From: Nitrospiraceae bacterium
GTDB lineage: Bacteria; Nitrospirota; Thermodesulfovibrionia; UBA6902
Direction: 5' to 3'
NCBI GenBank assembly: GCA_020356065.1
Contig: CP070632.1
Location: 766,656 to 830,655, forward strand
Length of the DNA stretch: 64,000 nucleotides
Below the pieces are notes generated by a model. The model was not told the DNA's origin. It saw only the letters and a list, made by a program, of their open reading frames with translations, and ran no database searches. This document shows, piece after piece, positions 6,717-62,139 of this stretch. The position numbers were made by a program, and so were the translations under genes. How positions within the stretch are numbered: the first letter of the stretch is position 1; each line of letters begins with the position of its first letter.

Positions 6717-8510
6717 GTGATGAAGAAATACAGACGAATATTAATACTTTTATGTGTGACCATGTTTTTGGGATGTGGTACGTTACACAATTTTACGAAG
6801 AAGAGTGAAAAAGAACATATCACCCCATCAGAAACGCGTGTCATGGCAGAGCATGAACATGGCGGATACATAACTCCCCCCTTATCATATAATTATGATT
6901 TTACCGGGATGGAATCAGCATCATCGAATGGGGACTCTGCAATTGATAACTTATCCGCAACAATACTCAGCGATAGGGATCAGGGGATTGCAGATTCCAT
7001 AAGCAACTGCAAGTTAATAGAAGTCTGCCGGGATAACAATACAGCGCTTGATACTGAGGAAGGTTCTCAACATACCGGGCATGCAGGCAGAAATGGGCCG
7101 GTTCCAGGAGATAATGATGAGCAGGACAATATTGCGCAGGAACAGGATCTGCTTGATTCGGCACTTGAATTCTGTAATGCATCACAGGGGTTCTGGTCGG
7201 AGGGAAATCTGGAGAAAGCAAATGAGGCCCTTGACGAGGCCTATTCGTTAGTTCTCGAAGTTGACACTGACGCATTTCCTGAACTTGTTCAGCAGAGGGA
7301 AGATCTGCGCTTCCTGATCTCCAAGAGGATCTTGGAAATTTATGCTTCCCGGTACACTGCAGTTAATGGAAATCACAAGGAAATTCCATTGACAATGAAC
7401 GAGCATGTAGAAAAAGAGATCAAGCGGTTTCAGGGAAGTGAACGGAAGTTTTTTATCGAGGCATATAAGCGCTCCGGAAAATACATGGATAGAATACGTG
7501 CTGACCTGAAAGAGGCCGGCTTGCCTGAAGAGCTTGCATGGCTGCCTTTAATCGAAAGCGGTTTTAAAACAAAAGCGCTTTCCCGCGCCAGGGCTCTCGG
7601 ACTGTGGCAGTTTATTTCTTCAACCGGCTATAAATTTGGTCTTAAAAGAGATAACTGGGTTGATGAAAGGCTGGATCCGGAAAAATCAACCGCTGCGGCC
7701 ATATCCTATATGAAAGAGCTGCACAATATATTTGGGGACTGGACGACAGTTCTTGCAGCGTATAACTGCGGAGAAGGACGAGTCCTGAGAAAAATAAGAA
7801 ACCAGCGTATTAATTATCTCGATAATTTCTGGGATCTGTATCAGCAGCTTCCGATAGAAACAGCACGATATGTCCCGAGATTTCTGGCAACATTACATAT
7901 TCTTAAGGATCCCGAAAAATACGGGTTTGAACTCGGGGGGACCGATGAAACAGTCGTTTATGACACGGTAACAATTAACAAGCCCGTGCAACTTAAAACG
8001 GTTGCAAAGAAACTGGGGATAGAAGGAAAGCTTCTGATTGAACTGAATCCGGAACTAAGGCATCAGGTTACTCCTGATACGGAATATTCACTCAGAATAC
8101 CGGTTGGGATGGGTGAAACTCTTCTTGCCTCATTGGATGACATACCCAAATGGTACCCGCCCGAGAACGCATATGTATATCATCGAGTGAAAAGAGGTGA
8201 AACCCTCTCTGTGATAGCCCTCAGGTATCGTACAAGTGTCACAAAGATCGTGAGAGCAAATAACATCAGACGTAAGCACCTGATACGGGCAGGACAAAAA
8301 CTCAAAATCCCTTTAAGGGAAAGTTCATCACATACAGTGTATGCGTCAACGGACCAACTGCTGCCAGACGGAAAATACCGGATAAAGAAAGGCGATTCCT
8401 TGTGGTTGATCGCCAGAAAGTTTAATACGAATACCAAAAAGCTGAAGAGAATAAATAATCTTACATCAACCCGCCTCTATGTCGGCCAGTATCTGAAAAT
8501 AACTGATTGA
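6717..8510 (+). CDS. mltD: MltD-like membrane-bound lytic murein transglycosylase with LysM domains
   Basis: Predicted to cleave the MurNAc-GlcNAc bond of peptidoglycan with 1,6-anhydro ring formation, anchored in the outer membrane. The N terminus has a lipoprotein signal ending in FLGC. A long acidic, low-complexity stretch (to about residue 220) precedes an SLT domain. The catalytic Glu is in PLIESGF near residue 280; ALGLWQFI and AAYNCGEGRV follow. Two LysM repeats close the protein (YHRVKRGETLSVIA and YRIKKGDSLWLIA). At 597 residues it is longer than E. coli MltD mainly because of the N-terminal spacer. GTG 6717 and ATG 6720 are both possible starts. Confidence 0.88.
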   Translation: MMKKYRRILILLCVTMFLGCGTLHNFTKKSEKEHITPSETRVMAEHEHGGYITPPLSYNYDFTGMESASSNGDSAIDNLSATILSDRDQGIADSISNCKLIEVCRDNNTALDTEEGSQHTGHAGRNGPVPGDNDEQDNIAQEQDLLDSALEFCNASQGFWSEGNLEKANEALDEAYSLVLEVDTDAFPELVQQREDLRFLISKRILEIYASRYTAVNGNHKEIPLTMNEHVEKEIKRFQGSERKFFIEAYKRSGKYMDRIRADLKEAGLPEELAWLPLIESGFKTKALSRARALGLWQFISSTGYKFGLKRDNWVDERLDPEKSTAAAISYMKELHNIFGDWTTVLAAYNCGEGRVLRKIRNQRINYLDNFWDLYQQLPIETARYVPRFLATLHILKDPEKYGFELGGTDETVVYDTVTINKPVQLKTVAKKLGIEGKLLIELNPELRHQVTPDTEYSLRIPVGMGETLLASLDDIPKWYPPENAYVYHRVKRGETLSVIALRYRTSVTKIVRANNIRRKHLIRAGQKLKIPLRESSSHTVYASTDQLLPDGKYRIKKGDSLWLIARKFNTNTKKLKRINNLTSTRLYVGQYLKITD

Positions 8511-8523
8511 ACAGCTGATATTA

Positions 8524-9645
8524 TTACGTGACCGCCTGCCTGATTATTCCAGCGATATGCTCTGCCTGCTCCGGTTCGAGCTCGGGGTACACAGGGATGG
8601 AGAGTACTTCCCTTGATGCTATTTCACTTACGGGAAAGTCTCCTTCAGTATAATGAAGATATTGAAATGCCTGCTGCAGGTGAAGCGGCAATGGATAGTA
8701 AACGACAGACGAAACAGAATTATTACTCAATGCTTCTTTGATTATATCTCGTGACGGTGATTGTATGGTGTACTGATGATATACGTGACTTCTGTCCGGG
8801 AGTTCTACCGGACAGAAAACAGAATCACTCAAGATTGATGTATATATATGTGCAATATTTCTCCGTTTCTGATTGTACTCATCTATTTGTTTCAGCTTTA
8901 TTCTCAGGATTGCGGCCTGTATCTCATCCAGTCTGCTGTTATAGCCAAGAAAACTGTGTTCATAAGGGCCGACTGTACCATGATTCCTGAGCAGCATTAC
9001 CTTTTTATATAAGTCCGTATTATTGGAAATCATCATGCCACCGTCGCCATATGCTCCCAGATTCTTGCTCGGGTAAAAACTGAAGCACCCTGCATCACCC
9101 ATGCTTCCTACTGGTATATCTTTGTATTTTGCCCCAAAAGCCTGTGCACAATCCTCTATGACATAAAGGTTATATTTGTTTGCGATCTCCATAATTTCAG
9201 TCATATCGGCCGGCTGTCCAAAAAGGTGCACGATTACTATTGCCGTTGTTTTCTTCGTAATACGCTCCTCGATTTTTGATACGTTAATATTCAGCGTATC
9301 TCTATTGATATCAACAAAAACAGGAGTTGCTCCGACATATGCTATTGACTCAGCAGAAGCTATAAAGGTAAAAGGCGTTGTGATGACTTCATCACCCCGT
9401 TTAATCCCGAGAGCCTTTAAACATAAATGCAGAGAGTCTGTTCCGGATGCCAGACCTACACCGTGTTTCACAGTGTGATATGCTGCTATTTCTTCTTCGA
9501 GCGAGCAGACATTCTGGCCGAGAACGAATTGACCGCTTTCAATTATCTCCTTCAGCGCAGACTTGATTTTCTCCTTAATCGGCATGTATTGAGCCTTGAG
9601 GTCCAGCATGGGGATAACGTCTTTGTTCAGATATGTTTCTGACAT
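8524..9645 (-). CDS. gnnB: DegT/DnrJ/EryC1-family sugar aminotransferase, probable GnnB
   Basis: PLP-dependent transaminase that would convert a UDP-3-keto-sugar to the 3-amino sugar. The PLP lysine lies in FYPSKNLGAYGDGG; TPFTFIASAES and EDCAQAFGA are family motifs. At 373 residues it is normal. It is the last gene of the lpx operon, 6 bp after a Gfo/Idh/MocA dehydrogenase. In Acidithiobacillus and Leptospira, the GnnA/GnnB pair makes UDP-GlcNAc3N for lipid A, and gnnAB lie near lpxA. That precedent plus this context supports GnnB. An O-antigen amino-sugar transaminase (WbpE-like) is the alternative. Confidence 0.78.
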   Translation of the reverse strand: MSETYLNKDVIPMLDLKAQYMPIKEKIKSALKEIIESGQFVLGQNVCSLEEEIAAYHTVKHGVGLASGTDSLHLCLKALGIKRGDEVITTPFTFIASAESIAYVGATPVFVDINRDTLNINVSKIEERITKKTTAIVIVHLFGQPADMTEIMEIANKYNLYVIEDCAQAFGAKYKDIPVGSMGDAGCFSFYPSKNLGAYGDGGMMISNNTDLYKKVMLLRNHGTVGPYEHSFLGYNSRLDEIQAAILRIKLKQIDEYNQKRRNIAHIYTSILSDSVFCPVELPDRSHVYHQYTIQSPSRDIIKEALSNNSVSSVVYYPLPLHLQQAFQYLHYTEGDFPVSEIASREVLSIPVYPELEPEQAEHIAGIIRQAVT

Positions 9646-55687: not shown

Positions 55688-56248
55688 CTACTTATGGAAA
55701 AAACGCCTTATCCCCATGGTTGCTCCGCCAGTGAGAAAAAGTATTGAGCTTATCGGTTCCGGTGCAACCGGGGGAGCAACGTCACCGTCACGTACTGCCC
55801 AGGCATAGCGTGTCAGAGTTTTATCGCTTACGCCATCTGTACCAGATTTAAAATTATACCGGTAAGCCATGCTGGTGTCCTCACTGTTTTCCGTGCCTGA
55901 CCAGTACATAGATGGTCGAACATCAGTATATACCCCGGGAGTTAATGATGATATCCCTTCCATTTCATAAAGATGTCCCATTTCTCCGCCCGTGCAGGTA
56001 GTTCCGGTACAGTCAAAGACAGGAAGCCTCCAGTCTTCGTATCCCTGAAACATAAGATCTGCAGCCCATGTATTTGCATCTGCCCAGGTCATGGTGATTC
56101 CTGCATAGTTTGCATTCTGAAGCCATGTGATATTAAGGTCATCATCGTAAATCAAACCATTTCCCCTGTCAAGCAATGCTGCGTTTGCTGTAACGGAAAT
56201 GGCAATGCATAAAGCTGTCATAACTAATACTCTCAAGGTTCCCTTCAT
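55688..56248 (-). CDS. PEP-CTERM sorting-domain protein with DUF1566-like domain
   Basis: Secreted protein of about 186 residues. It has a signal peptide ending near TANA, a DUF1566-like domain (NGLIYDDDLNITWLQNAN, ADANTWAADLMFQGYEDWRLP, YRYNFKSGTDG, AVRDG) and a C-terminal PEP-CTERM signal: VAPEPISSILFLTGG, then IRRFFHK. Such proteins are recognised by exosortase and often accompany exopolysaccharide. The ATG at 56248 has AGGTGA 8 nt upstream. A consensus sigma-54 promoter lies about 310 bp upstream. No exosortase gene is in the window. Confidence 0.88.
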   Translation of the reverse strand: MKGTLRVLVMTALCIAISVTANAALLDRGNGLIYDDDLNITWLQNANYAGITMTWADANTWAADLMFQGYEDWRLPVFDCTGTTCTGGEMGHLYEMEGISSLTPGVYTDVRPSMYWSGTENSEDTSMAYRYNFKSGTDGVSDKTLTRYAWAVRDGDVAPPVAPEPISSILFLTGGATMGIRRFFHK

Positions 56249-56351
56249 TTGAGATATCACCTTTCTCTGTTAATAATGTGTTAAAGTTTTATCCTGCTGC
56301 ACTGAAATAAACGTTGTGGAATTTTTGTCAGCTGTCTGGTGTTTTCATTAG

Positions 56352-56372
56352 CCATGTCCCCCTTTGACATAA
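56352..56372. repeat. direct repeat unit 1 with TGTC-N7-GACA core
   Basis: The block CATGTCCCCCTTTGACAT recurs exactly at 56452-56469, 99 bp away. Within it ATGTC and GACAT form an inverted repeat. It lies in the leader between the sigma-54 promoter and the PEP-CTERM start. Confidence 0.7.
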
Positions 56373-56450
56373 ATTATTAATAACGTACACGTTGTAAAAA
56401 ACTGATGGATTTGAAGCGAAAGGTATTAGAAGATCTGTTTGTTCATTGAT

Positions 56451-56471
56451 CCATGTCCCCCTTTGACATAA
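56451..56471. repeat. direct repeat unit 2 with TGTC-N7-GACA core
   Basis: Second exact copy of the unit at 56352-56372, in the same orientation, continuing similarly into AT-rich sequence. It lies about 75 bp downstream of the predicted sigma-54 start site. Confidence 0.7.
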
Positions 56472-56556
56472 TTTAAAATCTGACTGACTTTTATAACCGG
56501 TCTGACTTATTTTGTCAAGACCAGATTATCAGCATTAAAAAATCATTGAATAAATA

Positions 56557-56571
56557 GCAAGTGCCGTGCCA
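56557..56571 (-). promoter_or_regulatory. consensus sigma-54 promoter (TGGCACGGCACTTGC)
   Basis: On the minus strand TGGCACG and TTGCT match the -24/-12 consensus perfectly, with correct spacing. The start would be near 56546, giving a leader of about 300 nt to the PEP-CTERM gene. Upstream, GTGACA (56734-56739) and TGTCAC (56758-56763) form an inverted repeat suitable for an activator. Confidence 0.78.
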
Positions 56572-56871
56572 TATTATTCATGAAGTGAAAATTTATCAAG
56601 ATAGACCGGCCGTGAAAATGATGAATCAGAACATGCTGATTAATAGATATAAAATATCTGAAGGACGGTATTGTCATAATAGCCTTCAGTTTTTATCTTT
56701 ATTATCCGAAGAAAACATATACCGTACGACACAGTGACAAGGTGTGCACTACTGTGCTGTCACATTTTTGTTACGCTGATCATAATAAACATTTGGATAA
56801 TCAGGGTTCACTTTCTCATACGTTAACAATATCGTGCTTGACAACAAAACCTGTATTTGAGACAATTGCTC

Positions 56872-57633
56872 ATGGCAATCACTATTAATTCTGTAAAAGA
56901 CGAAAAAGAACTGATCGAAATCTATAGCCTGCGCTACAAGGTATATTGTCATGAGTGGGGCTATGAAAAACCGGAAAATCATAAGGACGGGCTTGTTTCT
57001 GATGAAAACGATATTAATGCTCTTCATTTCGCCGCAAAAGATGATTCCAACAGGACAGTAGGTGCTGTATCATTGATAATCGATGCTTCTGAAGCACTTC
57101 CCATTGAGCAGCATTGCGAGCTGGAGATCAATCATGATGATATACCCAGGGAGGGTCTGTCAGAGATTTCAAGGTTAGTGATTCATAGAAACTACAGGAG
57201 AAGGGCGGAAGATAAATACATATACGGCCCTGATGAAGAAAGAAGAAGTATAGGCAGTTTTGACTTTCAATACAGCTATCCGGCAAGCAGGAACTACTAC
57301 CGCAGGGCTGATGATAAATATACACTCAAGAACACAAGCAGGAGAACTCAGGATTCTCCTCAGGACAGAAGAAAGAGGCATGAAGTGATTCTCGGGTTGT
57401 ATAAGTCCATATACCAGGAAAGCAAAAAAAGGGGATTAACCCACTGGTATGCAGTTATGACCAAAGGGATCGCAACATTACTGGGCAAGTTTGGTATTGA
57501 CTTCAGACCCATAGGGGATCCGGTTGACTATCACGGAATCAGAACTCCCTTTATAGGTGAAATAGCACATATTGAAAAGTGCATGTCCGAAACAAATACC
57601 GACTTATACAGGGAGTTTAATCAGGGGATATAG
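56872..57633 (+). CDS. PEP-CTERM/exosortase system-associated acyltransferase
   Basis: A 253-residue GNAT/autoinducer synthase-like protein. The opening DEKELIEIYSLRYKVYCHEWGYE, the EISRLVIHRNYRRR block and the GKFGIDFRPIGDPVDYHGIRTPFI end match the family (TIGR03694) found with exosortase loci. It may N-acylate an amino compound linked to the PEP-CTERM system; the substrate is unknown. A charged insert of about 50 residues contains a near-duplication: NYRRRAEDKY (107-116) and NYYRRADDKY (141-150). The ATG at 56872 lacks a good ribosome site. Confidence 0.82.
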   Translation: MAITINSVKDEKELIEIYSLRYKVYCHEWGYEKPENHKDGLVSDENDINALHFAAKDDSNRTVGAVSLIIDASEALPIEQHCELEINHDDIPREGLSEISRLVIHRNYRRRAEDKYIYGPDEERRSIGSFDFQYSYPASRNYYRRADDKYTLKNTSRRTQDSPQDRRKRHEVILGLYKSIYQESKKRGLTHWYAVMTKGIATLLGKFGIDFRPIGDPVDYHGIRTPFIGEIAHIEKCMSETNTDLYREFNQGI

Positions 57634-57694: not shown

Positions 57695-58162
57695 TTATGA
57701 TAACGTCTTGCAGACTTCTTCAGACACGTCGCTTTCATTTCCGGCATAATCGTATGCTGTTACAGAAAAACACCAGGTCCCACTCGTCAGGTTGCTTATA
57801 AAGGCAGAGGTGTAGTTTCCAATATCAACGGTATCCGTATAGCTCCCGGATTCCTGACCATAGTAAACTATATACCCGGCAAGGTCATCTGTTATAGCGG
57901 TACCATCAGCATTTGTTTTCGGAGCAGTCCATGATAAGGTGACGCTGTCACTGCGTACCTCGCTGTTATCAAATGAAGAGTAGCCATTATCGTAAGCCTG
58001 GTGATCAGGGAAATTGCTTTCCTGTGCATTATTTTCAGATGCCCTATCTCCGAGACCCATTAATGATCCTCCCAGTTTTCCGCATCCGGAAGAGAATATG
58101 GTGATAAATGTTATAAGAATGATTAGTGAGGCGGCCTGATTATGTATGTTCCTCTGTTTCAC
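57695..58162 (-). CDS. lipoprotein with a fibronectin type III-like domain (paralogue 2)
   Basis: A 155-residue lipoprotein (lipobox FSSGCG) with an Asn/Ser-rich linker and one FN3-like domain: SVTLSWTAPKTNADG, DDLAGYIVYYGQESG, GNYTSAFISNLTSGTWCFSVTAYDYAGNES. It aligns along its length with 47811-48257, including the WCF and C-terminal cysteines. The start is GTG at 58162 with no obvious ribosome site. It neighbours the exosortase-associated acyltransferase, so a role in the extracellular or envelope matrix is plausible. Confidence 0.82.
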   Translation of the reverse strand: MKQRNIHNQAASLIILITFITIFSSGCGKLGGSLMGLGDRASENNAQESNFPDHQAYDNGYSSFDNSEVRSDSVTLSWTAPKTNADGTAITDDLAGYIVYYGQESGSYTDTVDIGNYTSAFISNLTSGTWCFSVTAYDYAGNESDVSEEVCKTLS

Positions 58163-58598: not shown

Positions 58599-59963
58599 TC
58601 AGGTCTTCTTGAAATCCTCTTTCTTCAGGTCATACTTCTTGAGGAGATTATAAAAGTCGGCCCGGTATTTGCCGGCCAAATCTGATGCTTTGCTGACATT
58701 ACCGTTTGTCAGTTCAAGAAGACTGGCAAGGTAACTTTTTTCAAAGTCAGCTTTGGCATCTTTAAATGATTTAATCATTTGTTCAGAGTGGCTGCTTGTC
58801 TGCAAAATTAAATCATCGGTCAGCATATTACTCTGGGTCATGGCCATTGCAAATTCAACAGTGTTTTCCAGTTCCCGCACATTTCCCGGCCAGTTGTGGA
58901 GCATGAGTTTTTGCATAGCCTGGGGGGTAACGCCTTTTACCTTCTTTTTCATCCTTCTGTTGAAGCTTGCAATAAAATAATCAACAAGCGGTGGGATGTC
59001 TTCCTTTTTCTCTCGTAAAGAGGGGAGCTTGACAGGGATGACATGGATTCGGTAATAAAGGTCCTCACGGAATCGTCCTTCCTGAACTTCATTTTTCAGG
59101 TCCACATTAGTGGCAACAATCACTCGTACATCTATATCAACCGGATGTGTACCTCCTAACGGGTGAATCTGACGCTCCTGAAGTACCCTGAGTAATTTAC
59201 TCTGTAAAGAGAGAGGCAGATCTCCGATTTCATCGAGTATGATTGTACCTTTATGGGCAAGTTCAAATTTGCCCTTAAGGGCTTCTTTATTGTGCAGACC
59301 CGGATAATGAGCTATAACTCCAAACAGTTCACTTTCCAGAAGATTTTCCGGTATTGCCGCACAATTAATAGCGACAAACGGATTATCTTTTCTGCTGCTG
59401 CCGAGATGAATCGCCTTTGCAATTAACTCCTTCCCGGTACCGCTTTCTCCATATAGATAAACTGTTGAATCTGTTCTGGCAATTCTTGATACCTGGTCCA
59501 GCAAACTTTGCATTTTTTTGCTTTTTGCGACTATATTGGTAAAGTCATACTTTTCGGAAATCATTTCCTTGAGATGCTTCATTTCCGCTGCTAGCCGACG
59601 GCTTTCCATTGCTTTCTCGATCTGTAATAACAGCTCTCGTGGATCAAAGGGTTTTGTTAAGTAGCTGTATGCACCGTTCTGAATTGCTTCCACGGCACTT
59701 TCAATACTTCCGAACGCCGTAAGAATAAGTACCGGCATTTCCGGATTTATCATTTTTATTTCTTTCATTAACGTAATCCCATCAATTTCTGCCAGCTGCA
59801 GATCAACTATTGCCATATCAAATACCTGGTTTTTAACAGCCTCTATAGCCTCGTCTTCCTTCTCAGACGTCACGACTTTGTATTTGGCAGACTCAAGTCT
59901 GATCTTGATAACTTCAAGCAGATTGCTATCATCGTCAACTACCAGAATTTTGCCCAAACTCAT
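58599..59963 (-). CDS. GlrR-like AAA+ response regulator with an atypical sigma-54 contact loop
   Basis: A 454-residue regulator. The receiver has KILVVDDD and phospho-Asp 54 in AIVDLQ. The AAA+ domain has GESGTGKELIAKAIH and LDEIGDLPLSLQSKLLR. The GAFTGA loop expected after ESELFG is replaced by VIAHYPGLHNKEALKG with no change in length, so normal contact with sigma-54 is doubtful. The C terminus has a helix-turn-helix (NGNVSKASDLAGKYRADFYNLLKKY) like GlrR. It is last in a kinase/TPR-lipoprotein/regulator operon with the same order as glrK-qseG-glrR. Confidence 0.85.
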   Translation of the reverse strand: MSLGKILVVDDDSNLLEVIKIRLESAKYKVVTSEKEDEAIEAVKNQVFDMAIVDLQLAEIDGITLMKEIKMINPEMPVLILTAFGSIESAVEAIQNGAYSYLTKPFDPRELLLQIEKAMESRRLAAEMKHLKEMISEKYDFTNIVAKSKKMQSLLDQVSRIARTDSTVYLYGESGTGKELIAKAIHLGSSRKDNPFVAINCAAIPENLLESELFGVIAHYPGLHNKEALKGKFELAHKGTIILDEIGDLPLSLQSKLLRVLQERQIHPLGGTHPVDIDVRVIVATNVDLKNEVQEGRFREDLYYRIHVIPVKLPSLREKKEDIPPLVDYFIASFNRRMKKKVKGVTPQAMQKLMLHNWPGNVRELENTVEFAMAMTQSNMLTDDLILQTSSHSEQMIKSFKDAKADFEKSYLASLLELTNGNVSKASDLAGKYRADFYNLLKKYDLKKEDFKKT

Positions 59964-59971
59964 ATCTTCTC

Positions 59972-60748
59972 CTATCTTGCCAATTCCTTTTTCTTTTCTT
60001 CTATCTCTATATCTACCTGTTTTGATTTTTCAATTACATCCAGCAGGCTCTGCCATACCTTTGCCTGATCAGCTAATGGACTGTCTGGGTGATCATTTAT
60101 CAATCTCTCAAAATATTCCATGGATTTTTTGTAATTCTTATCAGGATTATCATGGTGGGCATAAATCAGTCCGATATTAAAGAGGATTTCATCCATGCGG
60201 TGTTTATCATCCGGTAATGCCAGAGCTTTTTCATTTGCATCGAGGGCTGCTTTAAAATCATCTGTTTTAAACATCTGGTCATGTTGCACAAGGTAGCCAT
60301 TAATGCTTGACAGGGTTTCTACCCGTGCATTTAACCTGACAATTTCCGCATTCAATCTGATATCTTCATTTAATAAATGGTACCAGATTTTTGCATGGTT
60401 GTATAACGGGCTGTCGGGGTACTCTTCCAGTATTCTTTTGAATGATTCGACTGACTTCTGATACTGCCTGTCAGGATTGTCCTGGTGTGCATAAATAAGT
60501 CCTAAATTAAATATTGCTTTGTCCGCAGGATCATTTTTTCCGGACAGGGAAAGTACATACTGATTTTCCTTCGCGGCCTCTTTAAAGTCTCCCTGTTCAA
60601 ACAAAAGCTGTCCCTGATTCAAATGATCATGGGCAGCCCTTCTGGTCCTCATGTCTGATAAGGATACACAACCATACATTACAGTGAGTATCAGACAGGC
60701 AACGCAAAAGTAAAGACACTGCCTTGACCTAAAATACTTTTCACCCAA
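59972..60748 (-). CDS. TPR lipoprotein in a two-component operon (QseG-like position)
   Basis: A 258-residue lipoprotein (lipobox VMYGC). It contains a tandem duplication of about 75 residues: IFNLGLIYAHQDNPDRQYQKSVESFKRILEEYPDSPL and LFNIGLIYAHHDNPDKNYKKSMEYFERLINDHPDSPL. Each copy is a pair of TPR-like helices. The TTG start at 60748 has GGAGG 6 nt upstream and lies inside the kinase gene (58 bp overlap). In E. coli the matching lipoprotein QseG activates its kinase, which suggests a similar role. A charged helix closes the protein. Confidence 0.8.
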   Translation of the reverse strand: MGEKYFRSRQCLYFCVACLILTVMYGCVSLSDMRTRRAAHDHLNQGQLLFEQGDFKEAAKENQYVLSLSGKNDPADKAIFNLGLIYAHQDNPDRQYQKSVESFKRILEEYPDSPLYNHAKIWYHLLNEDIRLNAEIVRLNARVETLSSINGYLVQHDQMFKTDDFKAALDANEKALALPDDKHRMDEILFNIGLIYAHHDNPDKNYKKSMEYFERLINDHPDSPLADQAKVWQSLLDVIEKSKQVDIEIEEKKKELAR

Positions 60749-62139
60749 ACTTTACCTCCATGAGCAATTATAATATGTTTGACTATCGATAATCCCAGCC
60801 CCGTTCCTGTTATTTTATTTGAGTCTAATATATTTACCTGCTGGAATTTATCAAATATTATATCCAGATGTTCTTCTGATATTCCCGGCCCGTTATCTTT
60901 TACTGATACCTGTAACTGATCTTCTATCGTTTTTGTAAACACTCGTATATTTCCACCTTTTGGTGTAAATTTCACGGCATTTACCAAAAGGTTTCTGAGA
61001 ACCTGAAGTATCATGTTAACATCAATCTTAACTTTTGGTAATTTATTGGTAATATCTGATTCTATGCGGATTTCCCTTTTCTCGGCTATTGGTTCAATTT
61101 CACGTGTAACCTGATGAATCAGGGGCTTTATGTCATGCAACACAAAATTGAATTCCATCATACCGGCTTCCATTTTTGAGAGGTCAAGCAGGGAATTGAC
61201 CAGGCTTATCATTCGATTGCTTTCTTCCTTGATTATTCTTAATAGCCTTTGCTCTTTCTTATTCTCCCCCTTGTCATTAAGTCCTTCTATTAAAAGATTC
61301 GTTCCCTCATTAATGGTGGTAAGAGGTGTGCGCAGCTCATGCGACATGAATGAATAAAAATCTGTTTTTATTTTGTCTATTTCCTTTAATTTATTACACA
61401 TGGTATTAAAGGCTCGGGCAAGCTCACCAATCTCAGGGGGCGATGTTAACTCCAGGTCTTTGCCGAACTCCCCTTTTGCAATATCTCTTGTTCTCTTTTT
61501 AATTACTAATAATGGCTTTGTGATATTGAGTGTTATGAATATGGATATGATCGTACCCAGGAATAATGACGCCAGGCCGATGACTATTGCCACCTTGCTC
61601 GCCTTGACTTCGGCTTTACCCAGCTCCTTGACTTTATTATATGTATTGCGCTCATTAAACAGCCTGAACGCATTCAGTCCTTCTGTTATGCCGTTAACAG
61701 CTATTTCTTTTTCAGATTTATAATCGTCAGCATTATATGTCTGGCCCGAAGTAAGGTATTGTACTTCAATATTAAACAGGTCCTTATAATGCTCCTGGAA
61801 GAGTTGAATTTTCTCCAGAATGGATATTGATACAGGGGAATCTGTCATGGCCTTGATTTCGGCAAGCTGGCTGTAAAATTCCTTCTCAGCTGAAAGAAAC
61901 TGGGTGTAGAGTTCATCGTCAGGGGAAATAATAAATTTTTTCTCGTACCTCATCTGGGAAAGAAGGAGATCGCCAAGCTTTTTTTCATATTCCGAAAGCC
62001 GTCCGTCAATGAGGATAATTGACTGAGTATCTCTTTCCAGTTTACGCAGCTGAATAATCGCATAGACGCTTACTGCCATGGCCAGTATAAAAATGGCGAG
62101 AAAACCGATGACGAGACGTGCAAAAATTGTTATTTTCAT
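60691..62139 (-). CDS. sensor histidine kinase (GlrK-like position)
   Basis: A 482-residue inner-membrane kinase. Two membrane helices (about 7-29 and 180-202) flank a helical periplasmic domain, followed by HAMP, a HisKA box (SHELRTPLTTINEG) and an ATPase with LLVNAVKFT, DNGPGIS and GTGLGLSIVKHI. It is first in the operon with a TPR lipoprotein and an AAA+ response regulator. The stimulus is probably envelope stress, by analogy with GlrK; this is inferred. Confidence 0.88.
   Translation of the reverse strand: MKITIFARLVIGFLAIFILAMAVSVYAIIQLRKLERDTQSIILIDGRLSEYEKKLGDLLLSQMRYEKKFIISPDDELYTQFLSAEKEFYSQLAEIKAMTDSPVSISILEKIQLFQEHYKDLFNIEVQYLTSGQTYNADDYKSEKEIAVNGITEGLNAFRLFNERNTYNKVKELGKAEVKASKVAIVIGLASLFLGTIISIFITLNITKPLLVIKKRTRDIAKGEFGKDLELTSPPEIGELARAFNTMCNKLKEIDKIKTDFYSFMSHELRTPLTTINEGTNLLIEGLNDKGENKKEQRLLRIIKEESNRMISLVNSLLDLSKMEAGMMEFNFVLHDIKPLIHQVTREIEPIAEKREIRIESDITNKLPKVKIDVNMILQVLRNLLVNAVKFTPKGGNIRVFTKTIEDQLQVSVKDNGPGISEEHLDIIFDKFQQVNILDSNKITGTGLGLSIVKHIIIAHGGKVWVKSILGQGSVFTFALPV

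Follow-up and report, generated by a model that had tools for sequence, protein, structure and literature searches.

PEP-CTERM tails are routinely taken as a sign of sorting by an exosortase. How is a PEP-CTERM gene controlled, and what handles the tail of its product, in a bacterium with no detectable exosortase? The locus that raises this question lies in a window of 64,000 nucleotides (positions 766656 to 830655) of a genome from the Thermodesulfovibrionia, phylum Nitrospirota, which is assembled as one contig of 3,168,268 bp (3.17 Mb) and is 95.4% complete. A preliminary description of this stretch had seen in it a compact, regulated surface-sorting locus, with a PEP-CTERM gene behind a sigma-54 promoter and divergent from an exosortase-associated acyltransferase gene. 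Its observation is confirmed and its interpretation partly supported: a conserved sigma-54 site, a conserved upstream activator element (UAS) and RpoN speak for a regulated surface-protein locus, and a status as exosortase sorting locus finds no support, no exosortase being detectable. Coordinates below are those of the window unless stated otherwise (Table 1).

Table 1. Features of the PEP-CTERM/acyltransferase locus, ordered by position in the window.
Feature	Position	Strand	Basis or remark
PEP-CTERM gene: signal sequence, Lcl_C, tail APEPISSILFLTGGATMGIRRFFHK	55688..56248	-	TIGR02595, Lcl_C, tail profile A2
C-terminal sorting tail, sub-type PEP-x-SS-x-LF-xx-GG	55691..55765	-	Alignment A2
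Likely ribosome-binding site AAAGG of PEP-CTERM gene	56260..56264	-	Sequence, inferred
Candidate mini-ORF 2, MKTPDS-stop, after AAAGGGGGACATGGCTA	56328..56348	-	Sequence
Leader repeat copy 2, GGGGACATGG	56352..56361	-	In 42-nt direct repeat 56335-56376
Candidate mini-ORF 1, MNKQIF-stop	56426..56446	-	Shares ATGA with the end of MDQ-stop
Leader repeat copy 1, GGGGACATGG	56451..56460	-	In 42-nt direct repeat 56434-56475; copy 2 lies 99 bp away
Second promoter, sigma-70 type, TTGACA-N17-TATAAA	56490..56518	-	Near-consensus, downstream of sigma-54 site
Sigma-54 promoter TGGCACGGCACTTGCT	56556..56571	-	Consensus match; orthologous site in ~20 loci
UAS TGTGACAGCACAGTAGTGCACACCTTGTCACTGTG	56730..56764	-	Conserved consensus; 193 bp from sigma-54 TGG
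Sigma-70-like promoter of acyltransferase gene, TTGACA-N17-GACAAT	56838..56866	+	Conserved in L058, L065; inferred
Acyltransferase gene, TIGR03694 "PEP-CTERM/exosortase system-associated acyltransferase", FeeM/GNAT-like	56872..57633	+	Profile match

The divergent gene pair and its control region

The PEP-CTERM gene encodes a protein of 186 amino acids counted from ATG 56248, which is more likely to be the start than GTG 56260 because the AAAGG ribosome-binding site stands before it. Judged by eye, the protein has an N-terminal signal sequence, followed by an Lcl_C (DUF1566) domain (55 bits) and a tail that scores 17.6 bits against TIGR02595 (PEP_CTERM; curated cut-off 16) and 75 bits against the order's own tail profile A2, which is made of related tails of the order and includes this tail itself. 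Orthologues in loci L058 and L065 share 70% identity. The divergent gene product matches TIGR03694 with 172.4 bits (curated cut-off 111.95) and is a probable N-acyl amino acid synthase. Its predicted promoter ends 5 nt before ATG 56872, so that its mRNA may be leaderless. Relatives retrieved via the acyltransferase are Thermodesulfovibrionia, with a best identity of 84%. Beside the acyltransferase gene, 57695-58162 encodes a small protein that resembles a lipoprotein and has a fibronectin III-like domain, and similar copies lie near the acyltransferase in L058, L060, L062, L064, L065 and L072.

The exact -24/-12 consensus reported to point at the PEP-CTERM gene is indeed there: TGGCACG-GCAC-TTGCT, read on the minus strand from 56571 to 56556, is the single site with no mismatch in the window, where the remaining matches carry two mismatches and stay at chance level, and the sole such site in the whole genome, which holds 32 sites with at most one mismatch compared to 12 for a reversed control pattern. 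In the order, ~20 genomes have the divergent gene pair with a sigma-54 site in the corresponding position; in the loci used for the footprint, the sigma-54-like site stands 224 to 396 bp ahead of the acyltransferase start and faces the PEP-CTERM gene, and in the closest relative, L065, it is identical and perfect. The genome encodes RpoN (206 bits), and ~26 NtrC-type proteins are listed in it; where these were read, a GAFTGA-type loop is present in most. Across the order, a sigma-54 site (no more than two mismatches, in the 450 bp upstream) precedes 29 of 123 PEP-CTERM genes, against 0 in antisense orientation and 0.6% of shuffles. Do other PEP-CTERM genes of the present genome share the promoter, as the preliminary description had suggested checking? 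At least one more does, at ~368-369 kb of the contig, with a one-mismatch site, TGGCACATACATTGCT. The transcript of this second gene (L134 ~8215-9160, G000:C1 ~368.2-369.16 kb; orthologue in L227) opens with a small Cys-rich ORF (MNVQIVKESKKICPLLREPLEECYCNSMSSQDIEKTIFFCSG...) that is conserved and has no counterpart in Pfam.

Upstream of the promoter, a GTGACA/TGTCAC inverted repeat had been noted about 160 to 190 bp away as a place where an activator could bind. Both halves are found (56734-56739 and 56758-56763, 163 to 192 bp from the sigma-54 TGG), and they form the outer part of TGTGACAGCACAGTAGTGCACACCTTGTCACTGTG, a conserved element of ~35-40 bp. Its consensus, TGTGACA-N10/12-GCACAC-N2/6-GTYACAGTG, is matched in 19 of 20 loci with 0 to 4 mismatches in 22 positions; the best of 60 shuffles per locus reach 5 to 7. 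Within 1.23 Mb scanned, all matches with at most three mismatches fall inside the PEP-CTERM/acyltransferase intergenic region, and every one of them except one has a sigma-54 site downstream. The distance from the UAS to the sigma-54 TGG ranges from 124 to 283 bp, with about half of the loci at 193 to 201 bp, and that to the acyltransferase gene is 90 to 174 bp; since the two are comparable, the UAS could serve the acyltransferase gene too.

Which protein would bind this element? In ~11 relatives, one of them of the same genus, a gene for a PAS-type histidine kinase directly follows the acyltransferase gene, and the next gene, read in L061, L063 and L144, encodes a sigma-54-domain response regulator (EBP) with a GAFTGA-type loop; the three EBPs share 76 to 79% identity. 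In these relatives, the EBP would bind the UAS. The kinase/EBP pair has no detected orthologue in the present genome, among whose NtrC-type proteins the best match to the linked EBP reaches 42 to 47% identity. PrsR (TIGR02915) does not exceed its cut-off in the genome either (best, 453.8 versus 502.6 bits), and the linked EBP of one relative scores 388.9 on the same model.

The response regulator encoded at 58599-59963, part of a histidine kinase-TPR lipoprotein-response regulator cluster, could be thought to activate the promoter instead. It adjoins the locus, holds the same position in L058 and L065 with 86 to 89% identity, and has GlrR as its best named match (GlrR/QseF-like). However, it carries VIAHYPGLH (ESELFGVIAHYPGLHN) in place of GAFTGA, the sigma-54 contact loop, whereas the other EBPs of the genome in which the loop was located have GAFTGA or a close variant. 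From what is established for this protein family, the loss of the loop makes it an unlikely sigma-54 activator. In the loci examined outside the genus, regulators of this type do not stand beside the acyltransferase, and GlrR-type TGTC-N10-GACA sites occur at chance level, with none at the present locus. Taken together, its role as activator of this promoter appears very improbable. The cluster as a whole (58599-62139) has the QseE-QseG-QseF gene order and is kept in two other species of the genus.

The control region contains two features that the preliminary description missed, a second promoter of the sigma-70 type and a long leader with one to three sense-only GGGGACAUGG repeats. Because the sigma-70 promoter at 56518-56490 is close to consensus, the transcription start expected at ~56546 from the sigma-54 site is not the sole possibility. 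Sigma-70-like sites are found in 13 of 21 leaders, with 0 in antisense and 0.25 in shuffles. Is the sigma-54-like site then a relic, with the PEP-CTERM gene transcribed from the sigma-70 promoter and the UAS regulating the divergent acyltransferase gene? The near-consensus sequence and its recurrence, the proximity of the UAS to the acyltransferase start and the lack of an EBP orthologue of the linked type in this genome would fit such a reading. Nevertheless, a sigma-70-like site is missing in several relatives that have both the sigma-54 site and the UAS, the spacing between UAS and sigma-54 site is kept at 193 to 201 bp in about half of the loci, the site is unchanged in L065, and EBP genes belong to the acyltransferase operon of relatives. 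We therefore regard a relic as quite unlikely and continue with a sigma-54 promoter that would be used under control of the UAS.

The long leader of the PEP-CTERM transcript

A leader of ~300 nt separates the sigma-54 site from the PEP-CTERM start and holds two copies of AAAGGGGGACATGG. Its core, GGGGACA, occurs in 31 sense copies in 19 of 21 leaders, with 0 copies in antisense and 0.2 in shuffles. Nearly all units are followed within 14 nt by an ATG that opens a short ORF, mostly of 3 to 12 codons; candidates in relatives would encode MKIKNRSQP, METRNRSQP, MKTRNKFYP and MEMKNIFY. In L061 and L085, the main gene itself has GGGGAC as its apparent ribosome-binding site. The GGGGACAUGG repeats thus look like ribosome-binding sites that would start candidate micro-ORFs. 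Counted by hand, synonymous changes in the candidate mini-ORFs are not significant over all codons and are suggestive in the RSQP codons of L081, L082 and L083. An RNA element was also considered: no Rfam family matches the leader in the window or in relatives, and the window leader folds worse than its shuffles (z, +2.0), so that a known RNA element was rejected. The presence of GGGGACAUGG in sense orientation only suggests that PEP-CTERM genes are also controlled at the level of translation, which to our knowledge has not been described for them.

The leader 10-mer GGGGACATGG is also found elsewhere in the genome, in REP-like hairpins, at two RAYT genes and in places that look random, which raises the question of whether the leader repeats are degenerate remnants of REP/RAYT mobile elements without regulatory function. 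However, the leader copies keep their place across genera, occur in sense orientation only and lack the REP terminal stems, and in L061 and L085 GGGGAC apparently serves the main gene as well. A REP/RAYT origin was rejected, as no more than a 10-mer is in common, and we give little credence to leader repeats as non-regulatory relics that share it by chance.

The dispersed hairpins themselves follow the pattern GGATGYTGA...GGGGACATGGCTGAAGTTAAAAG...TTGGGCTC...TCARCATCC, vary in their terminal stems and have no Rfam match (G000 L113, L115, L116, L125 and L126). The two genes, in L117 and L122, are REP-associated tyrosine transposase-like by eye and start near GGGGACATGG. Three other genera have a conserved leader stretch of ~120 nt, ATCATCGGGGACATGGGAAAT...GTCCTC...AATTCCC...CAGTA...GCAAAATTTTGC...TACCTATAGG...CGC.AGTG (L060 9361-9540, L062 5646-5830, L072 9374-9610, L089 699-946 and L159), and Rfam gave no match in the leaders tested. 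Compared to its shuffles, the L060 leader folds better (z, -2.1), and the covariation term is unfavourable in leaders of the L060 type.

Sorting tails and the exosortase

Tails of the PEP-xSS-x-LF-xx-GG sub-type number nine in the present genome and occur in 40 of 47 genomes of the order; some relatives also have canonical PEPGTxLLLGxG tails (L061 and L132, in the latter beside an exosortase). The preliminary description had assumed that the exosortase must lie elsewhere in the genome. Three profile searches of the genome detected none: PF09721 found no match, TIGR02602 gave a best score of 13 bits (cut-off 105.6) in a match broken by three stops, and an alignment of four Nitrospirota exosortases (A1) gave no match at E<=10. 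Hence, the tail of the PEP-CTERM protein would be either handled by another enzyme or a plain membrane anchor.

Could this still be a canonical PEP-CTERM/exosortase locus, whose exosortase cleaves the tail and lies in unassembled sequence or has diverged too far for the models? The TIGR02595 score above cut-off is what such a locus would show, and PF09721 detects exosortases in 33 of the 47 genomes, including two of three same-genus genomes, one with a divergent type. A missed exosortase is possible because the genome, at 95.4% completeness, leaves some sequence missing. However, PF09721 scores 102 bits on the divergent same-genus exosortase and 33 bits on a very divergent enzyme, and ten genomes with at least three such tails, five of them of high quality, have no detectable exosortase. 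We consider the canonical reading unlikely, though not negligible.

The acyltransferase family had been described as known only from exosortase-containing genomes, which does not hold in this order: no exosortase is detectable in 9 of 32 genomes with the acyltransferase, 6 of these 9 being >90% complete. Among 26 high-quality genomes, with kinship ignored, tail and acyltransferase tend to occur together (P = 0.0004; 0.003 by genus), and tail and exosortase do not (P = 1). Nine tails and an "exosortase-associated" acyltransferase without a detectable exosortase in a one-contig genome, within an order that shows this co-occurrence pattern, make the assumption of exosortase sorting testable. A bolder proposal, which we hold to be rather improbable, is that PEP-xSSxLFxxGG proteins of Thermodesulfovibrionia make up a surface-sorting system that does not depend on exosortase: the N-acyl amino acid synthase would supply the lipid or otherwise replace the exosortase-linked step, an unrelated membrane protease or none would handle the tail, a dedicated sigma-54 activator would induce the flagship gene, and a leader of tandem micro-ORFs would tune it.

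The proposed locus and known systems

The reading that we favour, and consider fairly probable, sees here a surface-protein locus that is conserved in Thermodesulfovibrionia and can be switched on, with a two-component activator, UAS and RpoN, a basal sigma-70 promoter and leader micro-ORFs. A two-component sigma-54 activator would bind the UAS ~193 bp upstream and open the RpoN-RNA polymerase complex at 56571-56556, inducing an Lcl_C protein that would be exported by Sec and kept membrane-bound by the PEP-xSSxLFxxGG helix at its C terminus. The weaker sigma-70-type promoter just downstream would provide basal transcription. Both transcripts would share the long leader, in which GGGGACAUGG sites may start tiny ORFs that tune PEP-CTERM translation, and in the present genome the whole process would run without an exosortase. 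For PEP-CTERM control outside Proteobacteria, the conserved UAS and the linked histidine kinase and EBP of relatives offer a concrete activator-site pair.

That RpoN controls PEP-CTERM genes and that N-acyl amino acid synthases are linked to such genes was known before, so the core idea of the preliminary description carries a known kind of system into a new phylum; the Nitrospirota UAS, the leader architecture and the uncoupling from the exosortase are new. Haft et al. 2006 (PMC1569441) found that, of 167 proteobacterial PEP-CTERM genes, 99 have a sigma-54 motif upstream, saw this motif in Proteobacteria only and described the PrsK/PrsR system, and transcription of Aquincola pepA depends on RpoN1, with its start mapped (PMC9850573). 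The present locus shares with this PrsR-box/sigma-54 system a PEP-CTERM gene behind a long intergenic region, the -24(GG)/-12(GC) promoter, an upstream activator motif and the expectation of an NtrC-type activator (PMC1569441, PMC9850573). In contrast, motif 1 of the PrsR-box system is 17 nt ending in TTTACA, ~63 nt upstream, whereas the Nitrospirota UAS is a different element ~193 bp upstream, and the leader measures ~71 nt there compared to ~300 nt here (PMC1569441). Unlike the proteobacterial system, the Nitrospirota genome also lacks both a PrsR above cut-off and a detectable exosortase.

The pairing of a FeeM/TIGR03694-type acyltransferase gene with a PEP-CTERM gene agrees with the linkage of N-acyl amino acid synthases described in work by Craig 2011, as relayed in PMC7293339, PMC4897644 and PMC11072679. 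Compared to the linkage as these three papers relay it, that seen here is to one tail sub-type and persists without an exosortase. C-terminal sorting by other enzymes is known for rhombosortase and GlyGly-CTERM proteins (PMC3237569) and for myxosortase, a CPBP protease, and MYXO-CTERM proteins (PMC11980579). Their tails have the same tripartite organization as the Nitrospirota tail, with a motif, a transmembrane helix and a basic end, and are handled by an unrelated membrane protease; unlike them, the Nitrospirota tail retains the PEP motif.
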